Source: Agrobacterium sp. AGB01 (GTDB lineage Bacteria > Pseudomonadota > Alphaproteobacteria > Rhizobiales > Rhizobiaceae). From it: 64,000 nucleotides of DNA. Shown piece after piece: positions 1,149-26,919 of this stretch (position 1 is the stretch's first letter; the number at the start of each line of letters is the position of its first letter). Under the pieces are notes generated by a model, which saw nothing but the letters and a program-made list of their open reading frames with translations, was not told the DNA's origin and made no database searches. Location of the stretch: assembly GCF_014851585.1 (NCBI RefSeq), contig NZ_JACVAB010000010.1, forward strand, positions 62,001 through 126,000, written 5' to 3'. Position numbers and translations under genes: made by a program.

Positions 1149-3035
1149 ATGGCAAACGCAGCAGCCGTAAGCGGCTCGTCCCGTCCAATGACGGGAGAGG
1201 AGAAGAAGGTGATTTTCGCCTCTTCCCTCGGAACAGTTTTTGAGTGGTACGACTTCTACCTTTACGGTTCGCTGGCCATCTATATCGGCGCGACCTTCTT
1301 CAGCCAGTATCCGGAAACGACGCGCAATATCTTTGCGCTTCTTGCCTTTGCCGCTGGCTTCCTCGTTCGCCCGTTCGGCGCGCTGGTGTTTGGCCGCCTC
1401 GGCGATCTGGTCGGTCGTAAATATACCTTCCTCGTCACCATCCTCATCATGGGCGTTTCCACGTTCCTCGTCGGTGTTCTGCCGGGCGCGGACACCATCG
1501 GTATCGCCGCTCCAATCATCCTGATCATCCTGCGCATGCTGCAGGGCCTGGCACTGGGCGGTGAATACGGCGGTGCTGCCACCTATGTGGCCGAACACGC
1601 TCCGAACGGACGTCGCGGTTACTTCACCTCATGGATCCAGACAACAGCGACACTTGGTCTGTTCCTGTCGCTGGTCGTCATTCTTGGCGTGCAGTTTGCC
1701 GTTGGCAAGGAAGCCTTTGCTGCCTGGGGCTGGCGCATTCCGTTCCTTCTGTCCGTCGCACTTCTGGGTGTTTCGGTCTGGATTCGTATGAAAATGAACG
1801 AATCCCCCGCCTTTAAAAAAATGAAGGACGAAGGCAAGCAGTCCAAGGCGCCGTTGACGGAAGCTTTTGGTCAGTGGAAGAACGCCAAGATTGCCATTCT
1901 GGCGCTGATCGGTGCAGTTATCGGTCAGGCTGTGGTTTGGTACACAGGCCAGTTCTACGCACTATTCTTCCTGCAGAGCATTTTGAAGGTTGATGGGCAA
2001 TCGGCGAACATCATGGTCGCCTGCGCGCTGATCCTCGGCACCGGATTCTTCGTCCTGTTCGGTTGGCTGTCCGACAAGATCGGCCGCAAGCCGATCATCA
2101 TGGCCGGCCTTCTGCTGGCGATGCTGACTTACTTCCCGCTGTTCAAGACCCTGACATGGGCCGGTAACCCGGCATTGGCACAGGCGCAGCAGGATGTTCG
2201 TGCAACGGTGACTGCCGCACCGGGCGACTGCAAATTCCAGTTCAACCCAACCGGCACTGCCAAATTCACCACCTCATGCGATATCGCAACGGCGTTCCTG
2301 ACACGCAACTCCGTACCTTACGATGTTGTGATGACAGCTCCGGCCGGTACTGCAGCAACGGTTGCCGTCGGTGGCGCCACGATCAACAGCTATGACGCTG
2401 TTGCAGCGGGCGATCAGGCAACGGCACTGAGCAACACCTTCCAGAAGCAGGTCAACATTGCTCTTCACGATGGTGGTTACCCGCTGGTCCGTGGCCCTGC
2501 AAAGGTGGCTGATGCCAAGCTGGATGCCTTCATTGCAGCCAACCCGGAACTCAATCTCAATGCAGAAGCGGTTCGCGCTGGCGAAAAAGCCGTGGTGCCG
2601 GCCGACAAGTTGGTGGCTGACAAGCTGGCAACGACGGCAGAACTGAACGGCGCACCGGAAATGGCGGTTTACACCATTGCCGGTGGTGGTGGCTTCACCA
2701 TGGTTTCCGACCCGGCCGCGGTGAACTGGACAGTCATTATCGCTGTACTGACGGTTCTGGTGATCTATGTGACCATGGTCTACGGCCCGATTGCCGCTTT
2801 GCTGGTCGAGCTGTTCCCGACCCGCATTCGTTATACCGGTATGTCGCTTCCATACCATATCGGTAACGGTTGGTTCGGGGGTCTGCTTCCAGCAACGGCT
2901 TTCGCGATGAGCGCGGCCAAGGGCGATATCTATTATGGCCTCTGGTACCCGATCATCTTTGCAGGGATCACGCTGGTCATCGGCCTGCTGTTCCTACCGG
3001 AAACCAAGGACCGCGATATCCACGCGATGGATTGA
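1149..3035 (+). CDS. MFS transporter, metabolite:H+ symporter (MHS) family, with large periplasmic insert
   Basis: This 628-residue inner-membrane carrier is related to ShiA/ProP/KgtP-type proton symporters. The N-terminus has the family pattern VFEWYDFYLYGSLA, the loop 2-3 motif GRLGDLVGRKYTF, and GLALGGEYGGAATYVAEHAP in the middle of the N domain; the C domain has GWLSDKIGRKP and the end LFLPETKDRDI. Ordinary members have about 430-450 residues. Here an insert of about 190 residues (roughly 335-525) with two cysteines separates two membrane segments and probably faces the periplasm. The ATG at 1149 is preferred over the in-frame ATG at 1116 because GGAGG precedes it by a normal distance. 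The substrate cannot be read from the sequence. A strong terminator follows. Confidence 0.85.
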   Translation: MANAAAVSGSSRPMTGEEKKVIFASSLGTVFEWYDFYLYGSLAIYIGATFFSQYPETTRNIFALLAFAAGFLVRPFGALVFGRLGDLVGRKYTFLVTILIMGVSTFLVGVLPGADTIGIAAPIILIILRMLQGLALGGEYGGAATYVAEHAPNGRRGYFTSWIQTTATLGLFLSLVVILGVQFAVGKEAFAAWGWRIPFLLSVALLGVSVWIRMKMNESPAFKKMKDEGKQSKAPLTEAFGQWKNAKIAILALIGAVIGQAVVWYTGQFYALFFLQSILKVDGQSANIMVACALILGTGFFVLFGWLSDKIGRKPIIMAGLLLAMLTYFPLFKTLTWAGNPALAQAQQDVRATVTAAPGDCKFQFNPTGTAKFTTSCDIATAFLTRNSVPYDVVMTAPAGTAATVAVGGATINSYDAVAAGDQATALSNTFQKQVNIALHDGGYPLVRGPAKVADAKLDAFIAANPELNLNAEAVRAGEKAVVPADKLVADKLATTAELNGAPEMAVYTIAGGGGFTMVSDPAAVNWTVIIAVLTVLVIYVTMVYGPIAALLVELFPTRIRYTGMSLPYHIGNGWFGGLLPATAFAMSAAKGDIYYGLWYPIIFAGITLVIGLLFLPETKDRDIHAMD

Positions 3036-3059
3036 TCACCTTACACGACCAAAAGAAAA

Positions 3060-3083
3060 CCCGGCGCAAGACGCCGGGTTTTT
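3060..3083 (+). terminator. Rho-independent terminator after the MFS gene
   Basis: CCCGGCG (3060-3066) and CGCCGGG (3072-3078) form a 7-bp GC stem with loop CAAGA, followed by TTTTTAT. Confidence 0.9.
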
Positions 3084-3124
3084 ATATCTGCCCTTATGTC
3101 AGGACACAGTCCTTGAGCGACCTT

Positions 3125-4120
3125 TCATTGTATTGGCAGCGATTGGCTTTGCACCTCACCGCTTTGCATCCTGAACATCTGCGCAAAAAACTGTTCATCC
3201 GACAGGCGACGAAGCACCGCCGCAATCATCGCCGTTACCACCACCGCAAACACCACGCGCCCAACAAGAATGCCGTAAACGTCAGCACCAAGCGAAATCA
3301 TGATCAGCGTATCCTCGATCACACTATGCGCGAAACCCATAAAAACGCAGGACAAAAAGATCTGACGCGGAGATACCGTTCCCGACCGGGCCTCACGGAT
3401 CAGCAAGCCGGCACCATAAGAAATTCCAAGGAATAGTCCGACAGCCGTCAGATGGCCTGCCTCGCCTCGGATACCGGCAAGCCGCAACACCGGCTCAAGG
3501 GCTTTCATCATCCATGCCATCACCCCCGTCACTTTCAGCAGTTCAAGTGCCCAGAACAGCGCAAAAAGGATGACGAACATCAAGACCATGGTTTCGCCAA
3601 GGCTCCAGAAATATTCGCTCCATAGCGGCGTGACGCTGAGCGGGATCCAGGCCGGATTGACCGGAGCCGACAGCCAGTCCATGGCCTGCAAAACATGATG
3701 CAGAAGAAACGCGTAGAGCAGACCGCCTGCAACACGTAGCACGGTGGTGGCAACCATGCCAGGACCAGCCTTCTGGATAATCTTCTGCTCGATAGGCAGA
3801 CCGTGCGCAAACAGGATCAACGCTGAGAAGACGGTGATATCCGCGACAGTCAGCGACGAGACCGGAACAAGCGCAAAAATAAGCGGCACCGCGCCCCAGA
3901 TCCCGACCAGCATTGCCGTCAGCCATGCCAGACCAAGTTCATTGGGCAGGCCAACCAGGCTCATCACAGGGGAAAAGGCCGGTGCGACCGCCTCGATCAC
4001 CCCCATGCGCGATAGAAGCTCCGTCAGAATGGCGATGGGAACGGTAATCCGGACAAGCAGCCAATAAATGTCGATGGTATCGCGCGTTTTTAGCATGAAG
4101 GTTGATAGCAGTGGCTGCAT
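3125..4120 (-). CDS. Nucleoside recognition (Gate) domain membrane protein
   Basis: This 331-residue polytopic membrane protein has two similar halves of hydrophobic helices, as in Gate-domain proteins (the nucleoside-recognition fold found in concentrative nucleoside transporters, FeoB and spore maturation proteins). Typical short segments are WGAVPLIFALVP in the first half and GISYGAGLLIREA near residue 230. The actual substrate of stand-alone members is mostly unknown. AGGAG precedes the ATG at 4120. The gene is divergent from an Lrp-type regulator 121 bp away, so it is probably that regulator's target. The neighbouring rut operon for uracil breakdown makes a nucleobase or amino-acid related substrate tempting, but nothing in the sequence proves it. 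Confidence 0.75.
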   Translation of the reverse strand: MQPLLSTFMLKTRDTIDIYWLLVRITVPIAILTELLSRMGVIEAVAPAFSPVMSLVGLPNELGLAWLTAMLVGIWGAVPLIFALVPVSSLTVADITVFSALILFAHGLPIEQKIIQKAGPGMVATTVLRVAGGLLYAFLLHHVLQAMDWLSAPVNPAWIPLSVTPLWSEYFWSLGETMVLMFVILFALFWALELLKVTGVMAWMMKALEPVLRLAGIRGEAGHLTAVGLFLGISYGAGLLIREARSGTVSPRQIFLSCVFMGFAHSVIEDTLIMISLGADVYGILVGRVVFAVVVTAMIAAVLRRLSDEQFFAQMFRMQSGEVQSQSLPIQ

Positions 4121-22030: not shown

Positions 22031-22155
22031 TCTAGACATCGAAGCGACGCACTCCTCCTCCCAGCGTCGCTAGATGTGGATCGGCGATACTCCTCCTCCC
22101 AATTGCCGATCAAGTTTAAAGCCTGCCGCACCTCCTCCCGCGGCAGGCTTTTTCC
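22031..22155 (+). ncRNA. Multi-loop sRNA with three CCTCCTCCC (anti-Shine-Dalgarno) loops, cuckoo-type
   Basis: Three hairpins follow one another, each with CCTCCTCCC in its loop. Hairpin 1 has stem AGCGACGC/GCGTCGCT (22043-22050 with 22064-22071). Hairpin 2 has stem GATCGGCGAT/ATTGCCGATC (22079-22088 with 22102-22111). Hairpin 3 has stem AAGCCTGCCGC/GCGGCAGGCTT (22119-22129 with 22140-22150), which is followed by a T run and acts as a rho-independent terminator. The loops complement the Shine-Dalgarno sequence. This matches the cuckoo and CcsR-like sRNAs of Alphaproteobacteria, known as stress-related RNAs. The 5' end is not certain; an AT-rich TATATA lies at 22025. The gene stands alone in a 458-bp gap. 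Confidence 0.85.
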
Positions 22156-22864: not shown

Positions 22865-23167
22865 TGGTGTCCACGAGAGGATTCGAACCTCCGACCCCAG
22901 GATTCATACCACTTCGGCTTTAGCCGCCGTCCTCAGACGTTCGTGGTCTGGACTGTCCCTTCACCATGGACCTTTACGGCCTTTAGGTGCTGCCCATCCA
23001 GTCTCTACACCTTCACCGGATTTCTCCGGAGCTTGGCTCGGGATTGGCATGCTGGAAGCCCAGCGAAGCGTTCCCCGAATTTGAGCAGATCGATTGTGCG
23101 GTTTCCCGGCACAACCCCCAATTTTAACTTAGGAATCCTGTGCTCTATCCTGCTGAGCTACGTGGAC
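22865..23167 (-). tRNA. tRNA-Arg (anticodon CCT) interrupted by a group I intron
   Basis: Exon 1 is 23167-23131 (37 nt, acceptor strand GTCCACG through anticodon CCT) and exon 2 is 22904-22865 (40 nt, from AATCCTG to the encoded CCA). Joined, they form a 77-nt tRNA with acceptor pairing GTCCACG/CGTGGAC, anticodon stem CAGGA/TCCTG around loop TTCCTAA, and T-arm GGAGG TTCGAAT CCTCT. The intron separates position 36 from 37. The same tRNA carries a group I intron in Agrobacterium. Confidence 0.93.
22905..23130 (-). ncRNA. Group I intron in tRNA-Arg(CCT), 226 nt
   Basis: The intron follows the U of the anticodon and ends in G, as group I introns do. The R element AGAGACTGGATGGGCAGC lies within 22989-23010 and the S element GGGACAGTCCAGACC within 22945-22959; GACT of R and AGTC of S can pair as P7. 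A GGGGG stretch shortly after the 5' splice site can act as internal guide to the TTCCT end of exon 1 with a G-U pair at the splice site. No homing endonuclease frame is present, so it is a minimal, probably vertically kept ribozyme. Confidence 0.9.
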
Positions 23168-25722: not shown

Positions 25723-26919
25723 ATGGCACAGACACGCATTCCCGTTTCGATCATCACCGGTTTCCTCGGAGCCGGTAAATCAACGCTGCTCAACCACCTG
25801 CTGAAAGATCCTGTGATGCAGGATGCCGCCATCATCATCAATGAATTTGGTGATGTCAGCATCGATCACATGCTGGTTGAATCCTCCAGCGATGCGATTG
25901 TCGAACTGGCCGATGGCTGCCTGTGCTGCACCGTGCGCGGTGAACTGGTGGATACGCTTGCCGAACTGATGGACGGTATCCAGACCGGCAAGATCAAACC
26001 GATCAAGCGCGTGGTCATTGAAACAACTGGGCTGGCCGATCCGGCCCCGGTAATGCAGTCCGTCATGGGCAATCCAGTCATTGCCCAGAACTTTGTCCTC
26101 AACGGCATGATCACTGTTGTCGACGCTGCCAATGGTGCACAAACCCTCGACAATCATATTGAAGCGGTAAAACAGGCGGCTGTCGCCGACCGTCTGATCA
26201 TCTCAAAAAAAACACTCGCCGACCCTGAAAAGCTCAAGCTGCTGATGGAGCGCCTGAAGACGATCAATCCGCGTGCCCCTGTTCTGAATGCGGATGACAA
26301 GGCCAACCTGACATCTGCCATTCTCGAGAATGGCCTTTATGACACGACCAGCAAACATGCAGATGTAAGCCGCTGGCTGGGTGAAGAAGACCACGCCCAT
26401 CACCACCATGAACACAGCCACAGTCATGGTCACCGGCATGAGCATGAGCATGAGCATGAGCATGAGCATGAGCATGAGCATGAGCATGAGCATGAGCATG
26501 AGCATCATGGCCACCACCATCATCACGATGTAAACCGCCATGATGATAGCATCCGCTCTTTTTCGATCATTCACGACCGCCCGATAGAGCCTGCGGCTAT
26601 CGAGATGTTCATCGACCTCTTGCGCTCCGCCCATTCCGAGCGATTGCTGCGCATGAAAGCCATTATCCAGCTGTCGGATAATCCCGATCGGCCTTTGGTC
26701 CTGCATGGTGTGCAGAACATATTCCATGCACCGGAGCGGCTTGCTGCATGGCCAGACCGGAACGACCGCCGCACCCGTATGGTGATGATCACCAAGGATC
26801 TGCCGGAAGCATTTGTGCAGGATCTTTTTGGCGCCTTCGTCGGCAAACCACGCATCGACAAGCCGGATGCGCAGGCTTTGAGCGACAACCCGCTTGCCAT
26901 TCCTGGCATGCGGATGTGA
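25723..26919 (+). CDS. CobW/COG0523 family GTP-dependent metallochaperone with long His-Glu tract
   Basis: A 398-residue G3E GTPase. The Walker A motif is GFLGAGKST (13-21), the metal-binding CxCC is CLCC (66-69), and the second guanine-nucleotide region is IETTGLADPAPV. The CobW C-terminal domain follows (LVLHGVQNIFHAPERL). Between the domains, from about residue 222 to 268, lies a metal-binding stretch of His, Glu, Gly and Asp with eleven HE units in a row. COG0523 members handle Zn or other metals. No Zur site or metal transporter was seen close by, so the metal is not certain. Confidence 0.9.
   Translation: MAQTRIPVSIITGFLGAGKSTLLNHLLKDPVMQDAAIIINEFGDVSIDHMLVESSSDAIVELADGCLCCTVRGELVDTLAELMDGIQTGKIKPIKRVVIETTGLADPAPVMQSVMGNPVIAQNFVLNGMITVVDAANGAQTLDNHIEAVKQAAVADRLIISKKTLADPEKLKLLMERLKTINPRAPVLNADDKANLTSAILENGLYDTTSKHADVSRWLGEEDHAHHHHEHSHSHGHRHEHEHEHEHEHEHEHEHEHEHEHHGHHHHHDVNRHDDSIRSFSIIHDRPIEPAAIEMFIDLLRSAHSERLLRMKAIIQLSDNPDRPLVLHGVQNIFHAPERLAAWPDRNDRRTRMVMITKDLPEAFVQDLFGAFVGKPRIDKPDAQALSDNPLAIPGMRM
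26437..26502 (+). repeat. Hexanucleotide tandem repeat (CATGAG)11 inside the CobW gene
   Basis: Eleven exact, uninterrupted copies of CATGAG (66 bp) encode (His-Glu)11. Because the unit is six bases, slippage changes the length of the tract without breaking the reading frame. Confidence 0.98.

Follow-up and report, generated by a model that had tools for sequence, protein, structure and literature searches.

The group I intron of the tRNA-Arg(CCU) gene in Agrobacterium sp. AGB01 and a probable island route for related introns

The window analysed here, a 64,000-nt stretch of contig NZ_JACVAB010000010.1 of Agrobacterium sp. AGB01, contained an interrupted tRNA-Arg(CCU) gene on the minus strand at 22865..23167. 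With its intron search switched on, ARAGORN divided this gene into a 37-nt exon 1 (23131..23167, minus strand) with the 3′ end ...GGAUUCCU, the last base being U36, a 226-nt group I intron with G as its last base (22905..23130, minus strand), which was also recognized by Rfam and by helix counts, and a 40-nt exon 2 (22865..22904, minus strand; AAUCCUG...CCA) in which the CCA was encoded. Once joined, the exons gave a 77-nt cloverleaf read by ARAGORN as tRNA-Arg(CCT). An earlier note on this DNA had placed a group I intron in the anticodon loop of tRNA-Arg(CCU) at exactly these coordinates, with the tRNA halves joining after removal of 226 nt and the insert starting after U36 and ending in G; the analysis bore this out and supplied the strand, which had been unstated. 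The note's remark that a tRNA finder without intron support would miss the gene also held, since the default ARAGORN scan of the window did not report it, and the unspliced gene was detected only with the intron search on. A 'Pyl' call obtained under another intron option was placed two bases off and was dismissed as a register slip. Elsewhere in the window, Rfam recognized the alphaproteobacterial sRNA ar14 (22034-22155, plus strand; 114.6 bits), with repeated CUCCUCCUCCC loops, and a frame at 25723-26919 (plus strand), marked by a long repeat of His and Glu (HEHEHE...), had, by eye, the look of a CobW-type metal GTPase.

The Rfam model Intron_gpI (RF00028) matched 22932-23136 of the minus strand with 37.9 bits and an E value of 4.8e-8; nowhere else in the 5.62-Mb genome did this model match with E ≤ 0.001. 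The curated gathering score being 50 bits, the intron was not listed when the window was scanned at that threshold. Introns of two relatives, Bartonella choladocola (34.6 bits) and A. tumefaciens B6 (32.7 bits), also scored below 50 bits, and we therefore read the sub-threshold score as a probable poor fit of the model to this intron subfamily. The longest stop-free stretch in any frame of the intron was 74 codons and no endonuclease was found, in agreement with the earlier note.

For covariation, 106 distinct Arg introns were reduced to 85 with less than 93% identity; helices were named by hand, and the paired cells were then counted over the 85 introns. In window coordinates (minus strand throughout), the internal guide GGG (23117..23119) pairs with the CCU of exon 1 as P1, including U36.G (255/255 cells paired), and the AUU just before the guide (23120-23122) pairs with the AAU of exon 2 as P10 (238/255). 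The splice-site pair of P1 was U.G in 84 of the 85 introns, and the single row with C.G we take to be an alignment shift. Cells changed on both sides were counted in P2 (23109..23116 with 23092-23099; 636/680 paired, 176 changed), P3 (23083..23088 with 22990-22995; 510/510 paired, 19 changed) and P8 (22986..22989 with 22962-22965; 340/340 paired, 20 changed); P9 (22943..22946 with 22909-22912) was paired in 337/340 cells, P5 in 170/170 and P6 in 253/255. P4 (23073..23078 with 23038-23043) comprised six invariant pairs, and an outermost pair first put in this helix was removed, being G.G in 63/85 introns. The R element (22999..23003) and the S element (22951-22955), proposed earlier as able to form P7, do pair as GACUG/CAGUC in 85/85 introns (425/425 cells, invariant). 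The conserved group I fold was present, with the P3/P7 pseudoknot, P4-P6, P8 and P9, of which P7, P4 and also P5 were nearly invariant and hence gave no covariation; RNAalifold cannot draw pseudoknots, and the letters of P3/P7 were paired otherwise there. A final G and the same insertion site were found in all 19 complete Arg loci of the family with boundaries set by ARAGORN, the twentieth (L049) being cut by a contig end; the test of the final G rests on these 19 loci, the larger Arg intron set having been selected for that base. In two loci with an intron in tRNA-Leu(CAA) (L137 and L177), exon 1 ended in C, so that the pair at the 5′ splice site would be C-G where U.G is usual. On account of the strong covariation and of a full-length interrupted gene in 39/39 genomes of the genus searched, the window feature was confirmed as a real interrupted tRNA gene and not a product of chance.

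The genome gave 43 tRNA matches, and among their anticodons (30 + 13 read) there was no CCU; the other tRNA-Arg anticodons were TCT, CCG and ACG, and tRNA-Leu(UAA) and tRNA-Leu(CAA) were read without an intron. A pattern search of the genome for a second copy, with 3 mismatches allowed, gave 7 places and no exact match, and a pattern for the 3′ half of an intronless CCU gene, which matched only one of three presumed intronless controls, had no match. The interrupted gene was the only tRNA-Arg(CCU) gene found in this genome and is apparently single-copy. AGG might also be read by tRNA-Arg(UCU), and splicing of the CCU gene would then perhaps not be strictly needed.

By analogy with its relatives, the intron RNA can probably cut itself out of the pre-tRNA. 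In the folded precursor, the CCU of exon 1 would pair with the guide as P1, an exogenous guanosine bound in P7 would attack after U36, the released exon 1 would attack after the last G of the intron, and the ligated exons would yield a mature tRNA-Arg reading AGG. An intron intact in structure but inactive, with AGG being read by tRNA-Arg(UCU), is conceivable in a genome that encodes the latter, but we consider it very improbable, as the family consensus is kept in the core pairs and retention of the full-length gene in all the genus genomes searched would be unlikely for a dead gene. Even less credit can be given to a tRNA insert without catalytic activity, archaeal-type or other, merely resembling an intron, which the position in the anticodon loop would suit but which is at odds with the group I helices and their covariation, with P7 and with the Rfam group I match. 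We are nearly certain that the feature represents the group I intron known from tRNA-Arg(CCU) of Agrobacterium, its splicing being deduced from relatives and general knowledge, and its mostly vertical inheritance in the genus, with gain and loss recurring across the family, from its distribution.

The tRNA-Arg(CCU) intron of Agrobacterium is already known, and the family was first described in this genus. The group I intron of A. tumefaciens (Reinhold-Hurek and Shub 1992; Paquin, Heinfling and Shub 1999; as cited in excerpts of PMC7717549) has the genus, the tRNA, the site after U36 and the lack of an endonuclease in common with that of the window, whereas the introns of loci named A. tumefaciens (L106, L140 and L170) were 236-238 nt long as against 226 nt. 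The nearest named relative, 92% identical, was labelled Rhizobium halophytocola. BbgpI of Bartonella bacilliformis, which according to the same excerpts self-splices in vitro and is spliced in vivo, agrees with the window intron in tRNA and site but differs in host and sequence. Alphaproteobacterial group I introns in tRNA-Leu(UAA) have a related core (71-77% identity over aligned stretches, in eight genomes of the family), but they lie at U34|A35 of another host tRNA, form their own group in the intron tree and, in their commonest forms, carry the guide GAG instead of the GGG of the Arg introns.

Of 29 loci from the genus, nine had 100% matches among named Agrobacterium records, which placed the window in this genus. 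Among 121 genomes drawn evenly from the GTDB family, 20 had an interrupted tRNA-Arg(CCU), eight further genomes had a related intron in tRNA-Leu(UAA), and one additional match was partial (L067). When named genomes were scanned for a core pattern, at least 118 stretches matched, which, with 30 loci from the family draw, 4 from plasmids and 29 from the genus, made up the 181 loci listed. Among these the host was tRNA-Arg(CCU) in 123, tRNA-Leu(UAA) in 52 and tRNA-Leu(CAA) in 2, and the four left unassigned were one intronless locus, one degenerate and two cut by the locus end; apparent new hosts (Phe, His, Ser, Gln and 'Stop') proved to be ARAGORN register slips, reading of the exons giving only the three tRNAs named. 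Some loci were near copies, with 108 distinct genes among the 123 Arg loci and 46 among the 52 Leu loci. The 75 Arg rows formed by the named loci listed and the window belonged to Hyphomicrobiales (39), Acetobacterales (18), Rhodobacterales (9) and Rhodospirillales (8), one being unranked.

The intron tree, in which the bootstrap had not settled and a long-branch warning was raised, sorted the introns according to tRNA (Arg, 106 rows with support 100/99; Leu(UAA), 46 rows with 95/79; Leu(CAA), 2 rows with 100/96), with the window intron, whose insertion after U36 is the family site, among the other tRNA-Arg(CCU) introns. Within the Arg introns, 31 Hyphomicrobiales rows formed one group (98/97). 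The Arg introns were clustered by host order, but not cleanly: host orders required 11 changes on the 75 Arg rows, the minimum being 3 and the shuffled mean 31.6. Approximately unbiased (AU) tests rejected a single clade of Acetobacterales (p 8e-6), whereas single clades of Hyphomicrobiales (p 0.345) and Phyllobacteriaceae (p 0.198) were not rejected. For 19 genomes of the family, the intron alignment rejected the rpoB topology (delta lnL 59.1, p-AU 0.0002), the rpoB frames being picked by what we take to be an RpoB motif and G089 being left out as it had no rpoB hit. Presence of the intron on the rpoB tree, with 10 genomes chosen as intronless added, needed 8 changes, no fewer than the shuffled mean of 8.5, on a tree in which 9 forks were open and long branches drew a warning. 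Given the short intron alignment, single placements are weak.

BLAST for extra tRNA pieces near the intron-bearing genes gave 12 of 177 loci; at L135 a short piece (22 nt, 91%) lay on the downstream side and on the other strand, which speaks against the fragment pattern. With strict patterns, written after fragments had been seen, a same-strand 5′ tRNA fragment was found within 800 bp upstream of the gene at 9/120 Arg and 7/51 Leu loci, and none was found on the opposite strand upstream (0/120 Arg, 0/51 Leu) or on either strand downstream (0/116 Arg, 0/51 Leu). At the Leu loci, a 5′ half of tRNA-Leu(UAA) ending in the anticodon loop was followed, after about 160 bp, by a complete intron-bearing tRNA-Leu(UAA). 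Both island ends were located in four of the seven fragment-bearing Leu genomes (the other three being those of L105, L114 and L216), and in these four the host tRNA-Leu(UAA) was split by the island: 1) Devosia equisanguinis (a single contig, with the 5′ half at 265889-265926, the intron gene at 265430-265731 and the 3′ half at 195954-196008; 70 kb in all), 2) Enterovirga aerilata (5′ half 546084-546122, intron gene 545625-545926, 3′ half 487689-487742; 58 kb), 3) G118 (5′ half 110741-110779, intron gene 110259-110576, 3′ half 67108-67161; 44 kb), and 4) Phyllobacterium phragmitis, with the halves on two contigs. In all four, the rejoined halves gave a tRNA-Leu(UAA) cloverleaf, and an integrase frame lay 104-141 nt from the 3′ half; these frames had mutual identities of 64.5-98.5% and each scored above the Pfam integrase cut-off, that of Devosia having arm and SAM-like domains too. 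The 302-nt intron-bearing tRNA-Leu gene was identical in Devosia and Enterovirga, and the left ends of their islands were 90% identical over 10 kb. In the seven genomes with a fragment, a pattern for intronless tRNA-Leu(UAA) with one mismatch allowed matched broken halves and CAA genes but no intact copy.

According to the part of PMC4383910 consulted, the tRNA-targeting islands catalogued by Islander arise when a tyrosine integrase splits a tRNA gene, the fragments mark the island ends, and crossover in the anticodon loop is a common class. In those islands the tRNA is restored by a tRNA fragment in attP, whereas in the present cases its place is taken by a second tRNA gene that is complete and bears an intron. 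The main text of PMC4383910 does not use the word 'intron', and among the titles and abstracts of the matches listed from the openly licensed literature none concerned intron-bearing replacement tRNAs carried by islands.

At the Arg loci, a broken 5′ piece of tRNA-Arg lay upstream of the gene in the genus genomes G017, G120 and G156, a sign of replacement; at these loci (L040, L042 and G156:C2:1385423-1385450) and at L206 of A. vitis the fragment preceded the intact gene by 161-303 bp. In G017 the gene was followed by riboflavin-biosynthesis-like genes (by eye) and by nothing matching the window; the island reading of G017 and G120 is based on their 5′ fragments together with the absence of window matches downstream, where the contig of G120 has only about 0.8 kb. 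At L102, the intact intron-bearing gene was preceded by one 5′ tRNA-Arg fragment 690 bp upstream and another about 500 bp upstream, as though the tRNA had been replaced twice. The intronless-CCU 3′-half pattern was run on 15 genomes (the 10 with a 5′ fragment, that of L118, that of the window and the three controls) and gave orphan 3′ halves in 3 of the 10, namely Bosea, P. trifolii and Microvirga, but none in the other 7 (G017, G120, G156, G102 and those of L202, L204 and L206); a narrower pattern gave 1/5 genomes. The orphan halves of Bosea caraganae (GTCCCGG/CCGGGAC) and Phyllobacterium trifolii (GGTCCCG/CGGGATC) fit the acceptor stems of the respective 5′ fragments and rejoin with them to tRNA-Arg(CCU), and the intact genes of both species bear introns and have acceptor stems different from those of the split tRNAs. 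In both, an intronless tRNA-Arg(CCU) appears to have been split, with an intron-bearing one standing in, the 3′ half and the intron gene being on different contigs and the element not closed. The Microvirga orphan (L291) was left out of the count, since it failed to match the acceptor on its 5′ fragment. The gene adjoining the 3′ half in P. trifolii encodes a KAP NTPase and not an integrase. An integrase frame in Bosea lies on the host side of the 3′ half and may belong to another element, for which reason no integrase was credited to the Arg elements; at the 14 other loci tried, no homologue of this frame was found.

It is probable, in our judgement, that the endonuclease-free Arg(CCU) and Leu(UAA) introns of alphaproteobacteria have spread between species as island cargo, the island breaking the host tRNA and bringing a complete intron-bearing replacement. 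The shared core of the Leu islands was CTTAAAA in the anticodon loop, with the intron of the replacement at CTT|AAAA. A more speculative and rather doubtful idea is that the intron, by splitting this 7-nt core, shields the replacement tRNA from the integrase of the island; it is weakened by the shared core of the Arg elements (approximately AGAGC, in the D arm), which the intron does not split.

Related introns were also met on mobile elements. Of 72,556 plasmid records, 1272 had a relative at 60-80% identity, and in the four that were read, three from enterobacteria and one from Acinetobacter, an intact intron-bearing tRNA-Leu(UAA) of alphaproteobacterial type lay 0.6-2.2 kb from aac(3)-IId, which hints at an alphaproteobacterial source for that segment. 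In pCTX-M3 (L068) this gene was at 2967-3265, and about 165 bp upstream of it were common to Phyllobacterium phragmitis and Paramesorhizobium. The gene table of PLSDB has no entries for RNA genes. The tRNA-Arg intron was found in five IMG/VR contigs, and the four with a complete gene had other sequence after the CCA, as would fit prophages using the 3′ end of the tRNA. Gordonia phage Daredevil (L279) and Agrobacterium phage Atu_ph07 (L280) had related introns in tRNA-like genes, called tRNA-Lys and tRNA-Leu by ARAGORN alone, and no tRNA was annotated in the stretches shown. The phage introns known by 2014 were in protein genes, according to the part of a review consulted (PMC3984707).

The suggestion in the earlier note that the intron reflects long vertical descent was only partly supported. 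Within the genus, the distribution, together with the same upstream neighbour gene in 24/32 genus loci, argues for mostly vertical inheritance; across the family, the sporadic occurrence points to repeated gain and loss. A search of the window found no tRNA-Arg fragment beyond the interrupted gene itself, that is, no orphan of the kind expected beside an island-borne replacement, and the window intron is therefore probably old at its own locus; an island may have been the source from which its lineage acquired it. Descent that was strictly vertical, with many losses since an early alphaproteobacterial ancestor, would accommodate the gene in every genus genome searched, the single group of Arg introns as against Leu introns, the one group of Hyphomicrobiales rows and the Hyphomicrobiales and Phyllobacteriaceae clades that were not rejected, but above the genus level it is disfavoured and we regard it as unlikely: the introns reject both the rpoB topology and an Acetobacterales clade, split host tRNAs have intron-bearing copies in their stead, and Devosia and Enterovirga share an identical intron-bearing tRNA-Leu.

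For annotation, it is relevant that a default tRNA scan overlooks an apparently single-copy tRNA gene in Agrobacterium. Introns without an endonuclease need some way into new hosts, and split host tRNAs with intact intron-bearing copies at island ends offer a concrete and testable route. If true, introns would be gained without homing or reverse splicing, which would help to explain their sporadic distribution in the family.
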